A stretch of 58,970 nt of DNA from Alphaproteobacteria bacterium (lineage in GTDB: Bacteria; Pseudomonadota; Alphaproteobacteria; Micropepsales; Micropepsaceae), in the NCBI GenBank assembly GCA_003139615.1, contig PLJH01000111.1, forward strand, positions 131 to 59,100, in the 5' to 3' direction. The notes under the pieces were generated by a model, which was not told the DNA's origin, did not search any database, and saw only the letters and a program-made list of their open reading frames with translations. Positions 14,116-24,251 of the stretch are shown in pieces. A program made the position numbers and the translations under genes. Every line of letters begins with the position of its first letter. Position 1 is the stretch's first letter.

Positions 14116-14320
14116 CCGGCAGCGGAACAAAGCTCATCGGAAACCCGCTTAAATCTATGTTTTTTTGGACTTCTGAATCGTCTCGACCTATGATAGCCCG
14201 AGTTTTGCGGCACGAACGGCACCGCGAACATGGGCAGATGATCACGACAAATGTAGCAGCCGTAACGTACAAATACCCCTCGATTTCGTTATTAACGCGC
14301 GACGTTTGCTGAAGGCCGAA
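14116..14320. other. Leader region of the sialidase-like gene
   Basis: Upstream region of the BNR-repeat gene with no complete gene. It contains a T7 run at 14159-14166 and relatively AT-rich sequence. GAAGG at 14311-14315 serves as the ribosome binding site for ATG 14321. No clear promoter was identified. Confidence 0.4.
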
Positions 14321-15586
14321 ATGACAGAATATGTCTACGACCAGACGTTTTCTAGGCCCGTGGATCCCGCGTTCGGCTTCCGCCGCGTCGTGACGCGGCT
14401 CACTATTCCGAAATTTCCGCCCAAGGTGGCCATTGCTTCGTTTGCAGAGCACGTTTATGACCGCACGAACAAATGCTCGACAAAGTCGGTGATCGCAGTC
14501 CGTCGCGGTGGTGTGTCGGTGTCCAATGACCTCGGTGAGGAGTGGCAACACATCGAGCTTGTGGGCTGTAAAGATATCAATCTTGACCACTGCTTTACGC
14601 TCAACGACGGAACGCATTTGCTGCAGGGCAAGCCCAGCAAAGGTGCGGGACCACAATTGTCCGATTCTTTCGTTGCCCCATTTTTCCTCTATTCAGCAGA
14701 CTGGAAGCTTCTGGGGGAATCGTATCCGGAAGAAACTCACTGGCATGGATCGAGATCCGTTGACGAAGCCGGGGGCGTCGTCATGTTTGCACACTACCCC
14801 GCCAATGTAGGCAAGCATGGTATCGATCTCGGCGACCCGGAGTTAGTGGCGAAGCACGACATTCGTACCCCGAAAGTTTACCGCTCGATGGACGCCGGTC
14901 GAACCTGGTCCGTTGTGTTTAGCCGGTCGCCGAAAGATATTCGCCACTTTCATACGCTGATCGCTGACCCGTTTGTTCCAGGCACGTGGTGGTTGTCATC
15001 AGGTGATCAGTTTGACGAATGTCACATCTGGCTTTCGCCCGATAACGGAGAAACATGGGCGGAAGTGAGCCAAAAAAACCCCGGCGTTGAATTGCATCCT
15101 TCTATGGCCGGTCGGAGCCAAGCCGTATTTCGACACACCGATATGTGGGTTGGTGAACACGAGGTATCCTGGGGATCCGATGATTGGTTGGGGGGAGCTT
15201 CAAATTACGGGGATCCGAATGTACCTGTGCGCGCTGGGTCGCGCATGTATCGTGCAACGAAGAGTTATCCACTCGTTCCGAAGTTAGTCGGCTTTGTGGG
15301 CAATCCCGTTCGATCGATCATCGATGTCGGCGCTGCATTTATTATTACTACCGAAGCAAAACAAGAAATTTTGCCGCGGCCCCAGGTGTTTGTCGTCTCC
15401 AAACAGGCACCCAATCTCCTCACGGAGCTTTTTACGATCGATGTCGTAGATGGCAGCCGGACCGGATTTACCTTCTCGCGCGCGAGCCGCGCCGCCTGCG
15501 ACGGCACATTCTTCACTTATCGCGGAAACCACGACCTCGCAAATTCGCCGACACGCATCCTGCGCTGGCAGATCGATCTTGAATAG
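14321..15586 (+). CDS. Sialidase/BNR-repeat beta-propeller protein
   Basis: 421-aa predicted beta-propeller related to exo-alpha-sialidases. Asp-box-like repeats are visible: VSNDLGEEWQHIEL (~70-85), RSMDAGRTWSVVF (~195-207) and LSPDNGETWAEVS (~243-255). These S-x-D-x-G-x-x-W blocks mark the turns of sialidase propellers. They do not prove glycosidase activity, and I cannot identify the Arg triad by eye. There is no signal peptide, so it may act in the cytoplasm or be misstarted. ATG 14321 is preferred over TTG 14306 because GAAGG precedes it by five bases. The position next to glycan genes suggests a glycan-binding or glycan-cleaving role. Confidence 0.75.
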   Translation: MTEYVYDQTFSRPVDPAFGFRRVVTRLTIPKFPPKVAIASFAEHVYDRTNKCSTKSVIAVRRGGVSVSNDLGEEWQHIELVGCKDINLDHCFTLNDGTHLLQGKPSKGAGPQLSDSFVAPFFLYSADWKLLGESYPEETHWHGSRSVDEAGGVVMFAHYPANVGKHGIDLGDPELVAKHDIRTPKVYRSMDAGRTWSVVFSRSPKDIRHFHTLIADPFVPGTWWLSSGDQFDECHIWLSPDNGETWAEVSQKNPGVELHPSMAGRSQAVFRHTDMWVGEHEVSWGSDDWLGGASNYGDPNVPVRAGSRMYRATKSYPLVPKLVGFVGNPVRSIIDVGAAFIITTEAKQEILPRPQVFVVSKQAPNLLTELFTIDVVDGSRTGFTFSRASRAACDGTFFTYRGNHDLANSPTRILRWQIDLE

Positions 15587-15710
15587 TCGCTAAGACCAAC
15601 CTGCGTTGACAATCATGCGTGAGCCCACTGTCGGCGTCCGATGGACATGATGCGCCAAAGCTGATCGCGAAGTCGGTTCCAAGCTTCGCAGCAGAGATCG
15701 ATGCCAGTCG

Positions 15711-15771
15711 GTGACAGGAGCTATAATACGAGACGTATTTCCGAACCTTCGGGGATTTTAGCTCCTGTCAC
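15711..15771. repeat. 13-bp inverted repeat enclosing two smaller palindromes
   Basis: GTGACAGGAGCTA (15711-15723) is perfectly complemented by TAGCTCCTGTCAC (15759-15771). Inside the 35-nt loop lie AATACG-AGA-CGTATT (15725-15739) and CCGAA-CC-TTCGG (15742-15753). The whole can fold as an outer stem with two inner hairpins, a cloverleaf-like or cruciform form. It ends 23 bp before the start of the ExbD-like gene. It could be a structured leader, a protein-binding site, or the remnant of a small mobile element. Confidence 0.7.
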
Positions 15772-15794
15772 TGCAATTTTGGAGGCACCTTGAC

Positions 15795-16217
15795 ATGGAG
15801 GTTTCGCAGGACAGCGCCGTCGAGACGTGTTGTCGTGCCGTGCGGGGCCGATTAAACCGGACGCGCTATCTCGCCGTGTCTGCGATCGCAGCGCTTACGC
15901 TTCTTGTTCTGTTGCCCGCTCGCGCGCAATCCGACGAACGTCCATATTGCATCGAAACTCTCGCGATGCGCGACGGTTCTGTCGAAATCGAAGGCGCACG
16001 ATTCAACACCGTCGATGCCTTGCGTTCGAAGCTGGTCGAAATCAAAAAGCGGCACCCTGACTCTTACATCGGGCTTGAATACGAGAAAGGTGCAACCTTC
16101 AGGCAGCTTGGAGGCGCGATTCTCATGATTCAGGAGACCGGCATTTTTCCTCAAGCGGGATTTCTTACCGAGCCTCGCGCGGTCACCCCCGACAATCCGA
16201 TTAAACCTCCCCGCTAA
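15795..16217 (+). CDS. Secreted ExbD/TolR-like domain protein
   Basis: 140-aa protein with a signal peptide or signal anchor at residues ~25-44 (YLAVSAIAALTLLVLLPARA) followed by about 90 periplasmic residues. That part follows the ExbD/TolR periplasmic pattern: a short strand (GSVEIEGARF), VDALRSKLVEIKKRHP, a strand IGLEYEKGATF, a helix GGAILMIQETG and a final strand FLTEPR. ExbD-family proteins couple proton motive force to outer-membrane transport, but normally sit beside exbB/tolQ, which is absent here. GGAGG at ~15781 supports ATG 15795. The assignment is from pattern, not a certain homology. Confidence 0.55.
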   Translation: MEVSQDSAVETCCRAVRGRLNRTRYLAVSAIAALTLLVLLPARAQSDERPYCIETLAMRDGSVEIEGARFNTVDALRSKLVEIKKRHPDSYIGLEYEKGATFRQLGGAILMIQETGIFPQAGFLTEPRAVTPDNPIKPPR

Positions 16218-16375
16218 TTGGAGTTACGGAAGGCGTTCATCGTGGCAGTAGGGCACGTGTTGACCGACACACAAGTTGAAAGCGCGAACGCTGCGCCCAC
16301 GTTTCCGTCACATGCTTTGGGACGCGCGCCGGCCTTGCGTGTCCCCGATGAGCGGCAGCGTTTAATCGGCTATTT

Positions 16376-16423
16376 ATTGGCCAGAGCGGCGGGATTTGAA
16401 CCCGCGACCTCCAGTCCCCCAGA
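16376..16423 (-). repeat. tRNA-Pro 3'-end fragment, distal att-like site
   Basis: 48 bp matching the 3' half of the tRNA-Pro(GGG) gene at 24172-24219 at 44 of 48 positions. It covers the CCA end, T arm and part of the anticodon loop, then stops. It lies 141 bp before the integrase start. This is what an integrase using a tRNA 3' end as attachment site would leave at the distal junction. Confidence 0.8.
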
Positions 16424-16564
16424 AAATTATTTCAGATTCGCATAGCGGAACATAGCGTCTTCTAACGCCCTGAAGCCATTGACAGATTCTCGCTTCGGCT
16501 CAACATCGGTGAATAGAACAAAACATGCTTTCGTGCGTGTTTTGTGAGCCCCGGGAGAGAACAC

Positions 16565-17737
16565 ATGCGTCTCACTGACCTCTCTATCAAGAGACTGCGG
16601 GTGCCGGTTAATGGACGCGTCACATACACCGACGACACCCTTCCCGGCTTCAGCGTGCGCGTCACCGCTAGCGGCGTGAAGACCTTCACGCTCATGTATG
16701 GCAGGAATAGGAAGCGCATCACCATCGGCCGCTATCCGGCGATCACGCTTGCCGAAGCCCGCGCCAAGGCGCGTGAGCTGGTGGCGCAGCGTACCCTCGG
16801 CAAGGAAGACCTGCCCACCATCAAATTCGAGGACGCCGTCCCCATCTTCCTGGCAAGTCAGTACCCCGAGCACAGCCTGAAGCCACGGACACGAGCGGAA
16901 GCTGAGCGGGTGCTCCGAAAGCATTTCCTCGCGCCCTTTCGGTATGAGCTCCTCCACACCATCGCCACGCACAACGTGACCCAAATCGTCGATCGCATGA
17001 GAAAGACCCCGAGCGAAGCGCGTCATGCGTTCGCGATCATACGGTTGTTCTTCAACTGGGCTGAGAAGCGCCGCTATGTTCCTAAGAGTCCCTGTTGGGG
17101 TGTTGACTCGCCAAGAGCCTCGCCACCGCGTGAGCGCGTCCTTTCCAAAGATGAAATCAAGACGGTGCTCATAGCCGCGCGAGAGAGCAGCAACACATAC
17201 ACGACCATAGTTGAACTTCTCCTCTATACCGGACAGCGACGTGGCGAGATCGCCGGTCTTCGTCATGAATGGATCGACTGGGAGAACCGCACGATCACGT
17301 TCCCGGCTGCGATCACGAAAAACAAACGAGCGCACACGATCCCTTTCAGAACTCGCGTCGAAGAACTGCTGCGCAGAGGGAAGGACAAAGGAATCCTATT
17401 TCCCGGTCGCGGCGTCGACACGCCGTTCGATGGCTGGTCGAAGTCAAAGCCTCGGTTTGACGCGCGCTGCCCGTTGCCGCACTGGACGCTCCATGACCTG
17501 CGCCGCACCTTCGCTACGAACCTGGCTGCGCTTGGCGTGCCGGTGCACGTCACGGAGAAAGCCCTGAACCATGTCTCCGGTACGACCGGCGGCATCGTCG
17601 CCGTCTATCAGCGGCACACGTACGAGCGGGAAATAGGGGAGGCTATGGCTGCCTGGTCCTCCTGTCTTGAGGAGTTGACGCGCGAGACGCGGAGCGTCGA
17701 GCGCGTCGAAGAGCTCCCGCTCCGAATTGTGGCTTAG
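16565..17737 (+). CDS. Tyrosine-type site-specific integrase (P4-like)
   Basis: 390-aa tyrosine recombinase that would integrate the island at tRNA-Pro. The N-terminal arm-binding DUF4102-type domain reads LPGFSVRVTASGVKTF and RITIGRYPAITLAEARAKA. A core-binding domain follows at ~95-185. The catalytic domain shows the first Arg in YTGQRRGEIAGL, the His-x-x-Arg box in LHDLRRTFAT, the second His in ALNHVSG and the nucleophile Tyr in QRHTYEREI. ATG 16565 is chosen because GGGAGAG precedes it by a proper distance; the frame extends back to a GTG at 16544. It sits beside the distal tRNA fragment and reads into the island. All catalytic residues appear present, so it may be functional. Confidence 0.93.
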   Translation: MRLTDLSIKRLRVPVNGRVTYTDDTLPGFSVRVTASGVKTFTLMYGRNRKRITIGRYPAITLAEARAKARELVAQRTLGKEDLPTIKFEDAVPIFLASQYPEHSLKPRTRAEAERVLRKHFLAPFRYELLHTIATHNVTQIVDRMRKTPSEARHAFAIIRLFFNWAEKRRYVPKSPCWGVDSPRASPPRERVLSKDEIKTVLIAARESSNTYTTIVELLLYTGQRRGEIAGLRHEWIDWENRTITFPAAITKNKRAHTIPFRTRVEELLRRGKDKGILFPGRGVDTPFDGWSKSKPRFDARCPLPHWTLHDLRRTFATNLAALGVPVHVTEKALNHVSGTTGGIVAVYQRHTYEREIGEAMAAWSSCLEELTRETRSVERVEELPLRIVA

Positions 17738-20211: not shown

Positions 20212-20430
20212 ATGACGATGCCCGCGCATCGTCCCGGCGACGTCATTCTCAATAAATATCTGCCGAATGCCTCGCCGGAGGAGCGTGAGGCTGCGCGCGA
20301 GAGCTTGAAACGCCTCGCACGCCTGCTCATACGTGTGCATGAGCGCCTCGCGCTTGACAATCCACAGTCTGCGATTCGCGCTAATGCCGATCCCGCGCTA
20401 GAGTCGGAGTCGCTTTCCACTTCCGTATGA
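20212..20430 (+). CDS. Small protein coupled to the serine recombinase
   Basis: 72-aa, largely helical, charged protein (SPEEREAARESLKRLARLL). Its stop overlaps the start of the recombinase gene by four bases (ATGA at 20427-20430), so translation is coupled. ATG 20212 and ATG 20218 are both possible. No DNA-binding motif is obvious. Small ORFs of this kind just upstream of large serine recombinases may be directionality or expression factors (inference). The function is unknown. Confidence 0.65.
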   Translation: MTMPAHRPGDVILNKYLPNASPEEREAARESLKRLARLLIRVHERLALDNPQSAIRANADPALESESLSTSV

Positions 20431-21935
20431 ACAAGACTTATTTCGCATACATCCGCGTCTCCACGGTCAAGCAAGGCGAGCACGGTTCATCCCTCACTGA
20501 ACAGAAGAGCGCCATCGAGGCGTATGCCGCTCGCAACGAGCTCACGATCATTGGCTGGTACGAAGAAGTGGAGACGGCAGCCAAGCAAGGGCGCCGTCAG
20601 TTCACCCAGATGCTTTCCATGGTTAGATCGGGCAAGGTCGACGGTCTCATCATCCACAAGATCGACCGCAGCGCGCGCAACCTGCGCGACTGGGCCGACC
20701 TTGGGGATCTCATAGACCGCGGCATCGATGTTCGCTTCGTGAGCGACAACTTCGACCTGCTCACTCGCGGCGGCCGCCTCTCGGCCGACATCCAGGCTGT
20801 CGTCGCTGCCGACTACATCCGCAACCTGCGCGAGGAGGTGAAAAAGGGGATGTATGGCCGCTTGAAGCAGGGTTTGTATCCCTGGGCTGCTCCGATCGGC
20901 TATCTCAATTGCGGCAAGGGCAAGTTGAAAGTCATCGACCCGGTCAAAGGCCCGCTGGTGCGCCAGATGTTCGAACGCTATTCCGCAAACATCGTCGGCT
21001 TCGAAGAGCTGCGCCATGAGATGTGGACCAAGGGACTGCGCACTTCTGTCGGCAAGCCCCTATACGACAACACGCTCACCGCCACCCTCAACAACCCCTT
21101 CTATATGGGCGTGATCCGCATCAGCACTACCAACGAGACGTTCCCCGGCGCACACGCCCCGCTCATTTCCAAAGATATCTTTGAACGCGTTCAATCTATC
21201 CTGCGGGGCAAGACGGTGCCCAAGGCGAAGAAGCACCGCTACCTGCTGCGTCAGATGGTGAAGTGCGGCAACTGCACGCGCCGCCATCTCACCGGTGAAT
21301 TCCAGAAATCCCACCTCTATTACCGCTGCCACGGCGAGCATTGCCAAGGCGTCTCATGGAAGGGCGACGTTCTCGAAGGCGTCGCACTGGATTACATCCA
21401 GCGCATTCGCATCGACGAGAGTGGACTTAGGGACTTCAGGGACGTTGTACGGGACATATACAGCGAGCAGGAAGGCGACAGCGAACCCCGCAAGGCATCG
21501 CTGACGCTCCGGCTGCAACACCTAGACGATCGTACCACCCGTCTCACCGATCTTCTGATCGACGAAGCCATCGACCGTACCACGTTCAACGCGCGCAAGG
21601 AGAAGCTGCTTATGGAGCGCCAGGGCATCGTGGAGGAGCTTGAACGCGCCGACCGCCCCTCCCCGCTCCAGGAACTTTTCGAAGAGTTCGAACGCAACAA
21701 CCGCGAGCTTTTGCGCTATGAAACGCTGCTTGATGACGAAAAACGCGAATTGCTCGATATCGTATGTTCGAACTTCTCCGTGTCCGACAAAACTCCAACG
21801 TTTACGCTGCGAACTCCATATCGAGAGATATCAGAAATAGAAGATTTAGAGGAATGTGCTCATCATCGAGACAATGTTCGAATGAGACACATACTCAGTA
21901 TACTGAAGAATATAGCAGAGAGTGGGAGAACATAG
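20427..21935 (+). CDS. Large serine recombinase
   Basis: 502-aa serine site-specific recombinase. The N-terminal resolvase domain (1-150) has the nucleophile Ser in YIRVSTVKQGEHGSSL and the conserved HKIDRSARNLRDW segment. A recombinase domain follows at ~160-270 (PIGYLNCGKGKLKVIDP, NNPFYMGVI). A zinc ribbon of the type CGNC...CHGEHC lies at ~281-312, then a coiled-coil region at ~355-450. This is the architecture of phage and ICE integrases and of large resolvases. It shares an ATGA overlap with the 72-aa gene. Finding both a tyrosine and a serine recombinase in one small island suggests nested elements or a second integration route. Confidence 0.93.
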   Translation: MNKTYFAYIRVSTVKQGEHGSSLTEQKSAIEAYAARNELTIIGWYEEVETAAKQGRRQFTQMLSMVRSGKVDGLIIHKIDRSARNLRDWADLGDLIDRGIDVRFVSDNFDLLTRGGRLSADIQAVVAADYIRNLREEVKKGMYGRLKQGLYPWAAPIGYLNCGKGKLKVIDPVKGPLVRQMFERYSANIVGFEELRHEMWTKGLRTSVGKPLYDNTLTATLNNPFYMGVIRISTTNETFPGAHAPLISKDIFERVQSILRGKTVPKAKKHRYLLRQMVKCGNCTRRHLTGEFQKSHLYYRCHGEHCQGVSWKGDVLEGVALDYIQRIRIDESGLRDFRDVVRDIYSEQEGDSEPRKASLTLRLQHLDDRTTRLTDLLIDEAIDRTTFNARKEKLLMERQGIVEELERADRPSPLQELFEEFERNNRELLRYETLLDDEKRELLDIVCSNFSVSDKTPTFTLRTPYREISEIEDLEECAHHRDNVRMRHILSILKNIAESGRT

Positions 21936-23617: not shown

Positions 23618-23675
23618 ATTGGTCGGAGCGGCGGGATTTGAACCCACGACCCCCAGTCCCCCAGACTGGTGCGCT
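23618..23675 (-). repeat. tRNA-Pro 3'-end direct repeat, internal att-like site
   Basis: 58 bp identical to 24172-24229, the 3' part of the tRNA-Pro gene including CCA, T arm, anticodon arm and part of the D arm. Similarity then decays over the next ~15 bp. It is a truncated tRNA and cannot itself be functional. It marks the junction between two integrated units and lies 11 bp from the hicA stop. Confidence 0.9.
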
Positions 23676-23685
23676 GACCAAACTG

Positions 23686-23898
23686 TCACAGCTCACCGGA
23701 AGCAAGCCCCGTTTGTTTGGCGATCTTCGCCGTCATTCTGGGCCCGATCTCATCGGCATCGTGGAACGCAAAGACGTAATCTGGCGAGCCGTGGCGGGAA
23801 AGCGTTCGGTGTGAACCTGTCTGTCGCTTGACGATCCAGCCCTTACGAAGCAAAGCCCGCAGCACCCGGGACGCCTTGGCCGACGGCCACTGACTCAT
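23686..23898 (-). CDS. hicA: HicA family toxin (mRNA interferase)
   Basis: 70-aa HicA-type toxin with the double-stranded RNA-binding-like fold. VLRALLRKGWIVKRQTGSHR contains the conserved catalytic His in GSHR, followed by HDADEIGPRMTAKIAKQTGL. HicA toxins cleave mRNA and are neutralised by HicB. Its start overlaps the hicB stop by four bases. The gene ends 11 bp from the internal tRNA-Pro repeat, at the edge of a 0.55-kb unit holding only this pair. Confidence 0.9.
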   Translation of the reverse strand: MSQWPSAKASRVLRALLRKGWIVKRQTGSHRTLSRHGSPDYVFAFHDADEIGPRMTAKIAKQTGLASGEL

Positions 23899-24173: not shown

Positions 24174-24251
24174 TGGTCGGAGCGGCGGGATTTGAACCCA
24201 CGACCCCCAGTCCCCCAGACTGGTGCGCTAACCAGGCTGCGCCACGCTCCG
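24174..24251 (-). tRNA. tRNA-Pro, anticodon GGG
   Basis: The 78-nt minus-strand gene folds as a full cloverleaf. The acceptor stem is CGGAGCG/CGCTCCG with an encoded CCA. The D stem is GCGC/GCGC, the anticodon stem CCAGT/ACTGG with loop CTGGGGG (anticodon GGG), and the T arm GTGGG-TTCAAAT-CCCGC. The discriminator is A, usual for proline. Its 3' end is the right attachment site of the island. Confidence 0.95.

Follow-up and report, generated by a model that had tools for sequence, protein, structure and literature searches.

The closest described systems are the TIRtrons, in which Y1 genes are flanked by terminal inverted repeats, many of them with the motif GGGGWSAS (PMC3733652, PMC6006769). 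The name TIRYT denotes the terminal-inverted-repeat-associated Y1 tyrosine transposases, and solo or dimeric copies of the repeats, some of which are self-complementary, are described from elsewhere in some genomes (PMC3733652). The REP and REPIN sequences of RAYT (TnpA-REP) are short extragenic palindromes for which a Y1 transposase acting in trans is the presumed means of movement (PMC3116915, PMC6006769), and bacterial MITEs are given as 70-300 bp in size (PMC3733652).

Here we analysed a hairpin in a stretch of 58,970 nucleotides, referred to as the window, from an alphaproteobacterium of the family Micropepsaceae. The hairpin is probably a solo, diverged and non-autonomous mobile palindrome of the TIRtron/REP-like kind that is located beside a truncated IS630 end, rather than a control element dedicated to the gene that follows it. 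The features of the region are:

15592..15702, minus strand: truncated IS630-family end, with TA, a terminal repeat starting AGACCAACCTGCGTTGA and the 3' end of the transposase gene
15711..15723: left arm of the hairpin, GTGACAGGAGCTA, which together with the preceding CG (15709-15710) gives the foot CGGTGACAG
15724..15758: interior of 35 nt, with two possible small hairpins in the DNA and minus-strand RNA folds
15759..15771: right arm of the hairpin, TAGCTCCTGTCAC, followed by TG (15772-15773), which pairs with 15709-15710
15781..15785, plus strand: GGAGG between the hairpin and the start codon, from its sequence probably a ribosome-binding site
15795..16217, plus strand: gene for a 140-aa protein resembling the periplasmic part of ExbD

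The motif GGGGWSAS of the TIRtrons differs at one of eight positions from GGTGACAG, the foot of the hairpin family, and the likeness extends to the GGGGWSAS-like inverted repeats around Y1 genes among relatives and to the solo or dimeric copies, which exist here for the wider family, not for the exact window sequence (PMC3733652). The difference is that the window copy is without a transposase and single in its genome, and that its GGTGACAGGAGC foot was not seen around a Y1 gene (PMC3733652). Neither GTGACAG nor CTGTCAC occurs in the text of PMC6006769, and GACAG does not occur at the start of a word in the text of PMC3733652, figures excluded. Like REP and REPIN sequences, the element is a short extragenic palindrome for which movement in trans is proposed, but its hairpin is longer and has inner hairpins, it is single-copy in place of high copy number, and no GTAG tag was seen at its foot by eye (PMC3116915, PMC6006769). 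With MITEs it shares inverted ends, the absence of coding capacity and a position adjoining genes, but it is shorter than 70-300 bp and no target-site duplication was identified (PMC3733652).

The arms at 15711-15723 and 15759-15771 are perfectly complementary over 13 bp around a 35-nt loop, as claimed in the preliminary description of the locus, and the stem can be followed to 15709/15773 through one G-T and one C-G pair, giving 15 pairs in total, one of them G-T. On the minus strand, the right arm extends as AAAATCCCCG, which is near the CTATTCCCCG of a relative in another genome (G040). Folded as DNA or as minus-strand RNA, the loop forms a 6-bp hairpin with a 3-nt loop and a 4-bp hairpin with a 4-nt loop; for the plus-strand RNA this two-hairpin form is present in the centroid fold, whereas the minimum-energy fold has one longer inner hairpin only. 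The earlier statement that two palindromes lie within the outer stem, making three stems, is thus true, though not of every fold. Among perfect stems of at least 10 bp with loops of 3-50 nt, this is the longest in the window and the only one of 13 bp. Stems of at least 13, 12 and 10 bp were observed 1, 4 and 12 times, compared to means of 0.1, 0.4 and 4.6 in 30 dinucleotide-preserving shuffles of the window, and the mean of 0.1 shows that the figure of about 0.04 first put forward for chance was of the right order. Folding z-scores were -5.0 for the plus-strand RNA, -4.8 for the minus-strand RNA and -7.4 for the DNA. The hairpin is thus real, and a search of 15600-15900 against Rfam gave no meaningful match, the only hit being mir-335 at 14.6 bits versus the 64 needed (E 1.9).

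A strong hairpin within an intergenic gap could be the intrinsic terminator of an upstream gene, or another ordinary hairpin belonging to it, if that gene disappeared upon truncation of the IS630 element. The plus strand has TTTT (15777-15780) after the 13-bp stem, with five other bases between, and in a Bacteroides MAG a similar-looking hairpin has a T run after it. By eye, however, there is no longer T run on the plus strand and none on the minus strand, and sequence likeness to the elements G040 and L136, described below, is unexpected of a terminator; we consider this origin quite unlikely. The terminator scan of 15500-16500 takes loops of 3-8 nt, and the absence of a hairpin with a 35-nt loop from its list is therefore uninformative.

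To the left of the hairpin, positions 15590-15703 have 71-78% identity with four places on alphaproteobacterial plasmids, of which three carry an IS630-family transposase annotation, and another place in the same genome (L034) matches the IS630 end at 88% over 112 nt. The last homologous position is at about 15702, about 8 nt or less from the hairpin. Since this homology lies to the left and GGAGG and the ExbD-like gene to the right, the hairpin is placed between an IS630 remnant and a gene. The proximity would also be expected if the hairpin belonged to the IS630 element itself or arose as a foldback when the element was cut, but L034 and the four plasmid places all continue differently past this point, and relatives of the hairpin are present in other genomes, which makes such an origin highly improbable. 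A TA-duplicating insertion that splits a CTAG palindrome was also considered, and was dropped because no separate ends are seen in the 35-nt interior.

IS630-family ends were seen at three places in the genome (window 15592-15702, L034 1501-1612 and L035 7-45), and as two of these are near contig ends, the element may break the assembly. Further upstream in the window, 14306-15586 codes for a BNR/sialidase-like protein (weak Pfam match) with two homologs in the same genome (L025 and L026; 36-37% identity).

On the right side, the hairpin is separated by 23 nt from the ATG at 15795, in agreement with the distance first reported. The identification of the gene as ExbD-like stands in part, in that there is a Pfam match, but a weak one below the cut-off (E 0.0083, 16.6 bits versus 25.4). 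Matches to the gene were present in 11 of the 68 further genus genomes (best E 6.8e-9); at 22-40% identity these may not be orthologs, and three of them look like full ExbD proteins. A tblastn search with the protein against the genome contigs collection gave no relative.

The location just ahead of the ATG would suit a hairpin under selection as a structured 5' leader of the ExbD-like gene or as a stabiliser of its mRNA. The folding is much stronger than that of shuffled sequences. GGAGG is free in the centroid fold, but the minimum-energy fold pairs it with bases downstream of it. On the other hand, none of the 11 genus matches has a perfect stem of more than 8 bp within 150 nt upstream, a limited test as these are distant matches of 22-40% identity with automatic start codons and three look like full ExbD. 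A consensus scan of 15500-16500 found no sigma-70-like promoter, and the ORFs adjoining the relatives of the hairpin, which are unannotated, do not look alike. A role as leader is in our view unlikely, and any effect on the downstream gene may be incidental. For the structured leader or regulator site initially suggested, position is what remains, upstream stems, promoter scan and Rfam all having been negative.

The exact sequence is single in its genome. BLAST found no second copy in the genome, and searches with 15700-15800 and with 15704-15800 against 96 genomes of the family returned only the window itself, with none in the 95 others at E 0.01. When E values up to 0.1 were allowed in 69 genomes of the genus, two 25-nt pieces (in G038 and G014; E about 0.04) were obtained, which we took as chance. 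There was no match of 15700-15800 to plasmids, and nine phage records at E about 3 were rejected, as was one Bacteroides hairpin with a T run that was found in the genome contigs with a pattern of 11-base arms, for which our chance estimate was about 0.5. In viral contigs, neither the exact-arm nor the left-arm pattern was found. Matches there to CGGGGATTNTNGCTCCTGT (10 stretches, two different sequences), to GTGACAGNNNCTA...TAGNNNCTGTCAC (three stretches of two kinds in long ORFs, L093 and L095, with L094 like L093) and to CGGTGACAGNNNNNCTATTNCC (16 stretches, in which no hairpin was seen, although L122 ends too soon after the match to tell) were judged to be chance. The pattern GTGACAGNNNCTAN{8,38}TAGNNNCTGTCAC matched the window alone in 385 genomes of the class, five of them from the family of the window, and CGGTGACAGNNNNNCTATTNCC was absent from 398 genomes of the phylum, in which the family is represented by the window's own genome only; since the former pattern misfits G040 and G002 and the latter misfits the window, these are weak tests of the breadth of the family. 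A longer form of the GGTGACAG motif gave nothing in the wider collections.

Diverged relatives were identified with pattern and covariance-model searches at 11 other places in eight related genomes, one of them weak, and on one IMG/VR contig. They share the foot GGTGACAG...CTGTCACC, are 37-63 nt in length and have stems that change together on both sides. The pattern CGGTGACAGN{22,52}CTGTCAC yielded 24 rows, corresponding to 17 distinct places in 12 of the 96 family genomes, and the reversed-pattern control yielded three rows; a palindrome may be counted on both strands, so the proper comparison is 17 versus 3. Eleven of the 17 places, in eight of the 96 genomes and including the window, were picked by eye as elements. 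Six of these are of the GTGCAC type (one in G086, two in G089, one in G090 and two in G091), and the others are from G002, G040, G094 (two) and the window. One of the G091 elements is the flank of the Y1 gene at L076, and the G090 element is about 1.3 kb from a Y1 gene. The six places left out are in contig C41 of the window's own genome, G034, G036, G038 and G095 (two, one of which has a 13-bp stem).

The sole match of a covariance model built from the single window sequence, in G045, is weak, and its E of 0.035 for one genome means that about three would be expected over the 96, which is chance level; it has CGGTGACAG and CGGGGATTnTnGCTCCTGT in common with the window. The IMG/VR contig (L136) was found with a 26-base pattern and reads CGGTGACAGGAGCACTATTC...GCTCCTGTCACCG on its minus strand, close to G040. 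The arms of G040, L136 and the window have CGGTGACAGGAGC...GCTCCTGTCACCG in common, the right foot in the window being CAGTGACAG, and the interior of G040 contains TCCCCG, as does that of the window. The solo elements of G002, G040 and G094 start with AATACGGTGACAG and continue to CTATT(T/C)CC. BLAST with the G040 element against plasmids gave nothing, CGGTGACAGGAGCNNTATTNNCC in the viral contigs gave L136 again and nothing further, and an empty site was not found. The search of the arms and the whole unit across the genome and relatives that had been proposed at the outset thus gave a single exact sequence, with diverged relatives by pattern and covariance model.

Because the outer foot is set by the search pattern its constancy proves nothing, and covariation was tested for the seven pairs next to it. 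For 13 elements, 77 of 91 cells pair, compared to a mean of 48.4 when the right arms were re-dealt, and none of 20000 such shuffles, which leave the relatedness among the sequences in place, was as high. To allow for the choice of elements by eye, all 19 rows, the six left-out places included, were then tested in the same way (94 of 133 versus 59.1; 0/20000). The 16 pattern places other than the window also gave an excess (78 of 112 versus 52.9; 0/20000), and a weaker one was obtained for the seven GGAGC-like elements alone (40 of 49 versus 28.1; 97/20000). The stems of the diverged family thus covary. The preliminary description had named as refutation a sequence that is unique with no covariation, or a known repeat in many copies; the exact sequence is unique, but it belongs to a diverged low-copy family with covarying stems, so that this refutation does not apply as it was written.

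The variation of the stem letters with pairing largely kept fits recognition of a hairpin, not of a duplex operator, and so bears on whether the palindrome could be a site for a site-specific recombinase or an operator for a regulator. A tyrosine integrase (16544-17737) and a serine recombinase (20427-21935) are encoded nearby, but the integrase adjoins a 3' fragment of tRNA-Pro, its likely attachment site, and we judge either function very improbable. An attC site was also considered, and was dropped as no GTTRRRY was seen by eye.

The tRNA-Pro 3' fragment (16380-16423) beside the tyrosine integrase gene is 7-8 kb from two complete tRNA-Pro(GGG) genes (23620-23698 and 24174-24251), and these are probably the two ends of an integrated island. 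The serine recombinase gene, which is of the large type with Resolvase and Recombinase domains, is located inside the same stretch.

The presumption that GGTGACAG-like ends occur near IS200-like transposases was tested. Genes matching PF01797 were present in 32 of the 96 family genomes (56 matches), and the window's own genome has five Y1 genes; G002 and G040, both of which carry elements, had no match in the PF01797 list. We scanned 45 PF01797 loci (30 + 15) for the motif. CGGTGACAGTGCACTTA or a close variant was found on both sides of the gene at four of these, namely L076 in G091, where there is a whole hairpin on each side, L077 in G095, and L085 and L087 in G090. The CGGTGACAGTGCAC repeats of these four of the 45 loci are related to the window hairpin, and GGGGAC-type repeats flank the Y1 genes at L056, L068, L071 and L080. 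An inverted repeat of at least 11 bp surrounds the Y1 gene in 18 of 28 loci examined, and 12 of the 18 are by eye of the GGGGTCAG, GGGGAC or GGTGACAG type, while the others differ.

The window's own genome also has a Y1-flanking repeat that contains AATACGGGGACGTC. A 21-bp repeat, GAAATACGGGGACGTCTAATC, with TATTTC after it, brackets one of its Y1 genes (L080) and is like the AATACGGTGACAGGAACCCTATTTCCC of G002; the Y1 gene of L068 lies between copies of the 23-bp repeat CGGGGACATGATACATATTCCCC, with AATA before it. GTGCAC-type hairpins are also located away from Y1 genes, as far as the PF01797 list shows, in G086, G089 and contig C43 of G091. The types linked to Y1 genes are GTGCAC and GGGGAC, and GGAGC-type ends were not seen on both sides of any Y1 gene; none of the scanned neighbour genes in the window matches PF01797, and there is no transposase within the window copy. 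Among the three original readings, a recombination site comes nearest, in that the hairpin resembles repeats that flank Y1 (HUH) transposase genes.

Two further observations concern the Y1 loci. At L085 (1236, 1968 and 2436), CGGTGACAGTGCACTTA is found twice, with almost identical sequence downstream of it, to either side of a Y1 gene region, which suggests duplication or transposition of this element in G090. The Y1 genes at L072, L081, L088 and L090 are accompanied by long repeats rich in GCGGGC..GCCCGC or GCCGGC-like palindromic tracts, which are more like REP elements.

For a solo mobile palindrome, we propose mobilisation of the IS200/IS605 type, with single-strand cleavage at the foot by a Y1 protein. 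The unit would consist of two opposed transposon ends of about 15-20 nt each, made up of the foot CGGTGACAG and a variable stem, with a short filler between, and relatives of this kind of unit flank IS200-like Y1 (HUH) transposase genes as inverted repeats in the manner of TIRtrons/TIRYTs. A Y1 transposase acting in trans may recognise the single-stranded hairpin and cleave at its foot, and the hairpin would have been inserted next to the IS630 remnant, after which the inserted copy would have decayed. A bolder view, that the hairpins form an undescribed family with a fixed foot GGTGACAG, a covarying stem and a length of 37-63 nt, mobilised in trans by TIRYT-type transposases and dispersed across this bacterial family and to viral DNA, with one copy now serving as the 5' leader of the ExbD-like gene, seems doubtful to us.

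As this case shows, a strong hairpin ahead of a gene is not necessarily a regulatory leader. A survey of such TIRtrons is left open in the text of PMC3733652. The hairpins described here are a compact set whose stems covary, and they may connect solo palindromes with Y1 transposases beyond the classical GTAG REPs.
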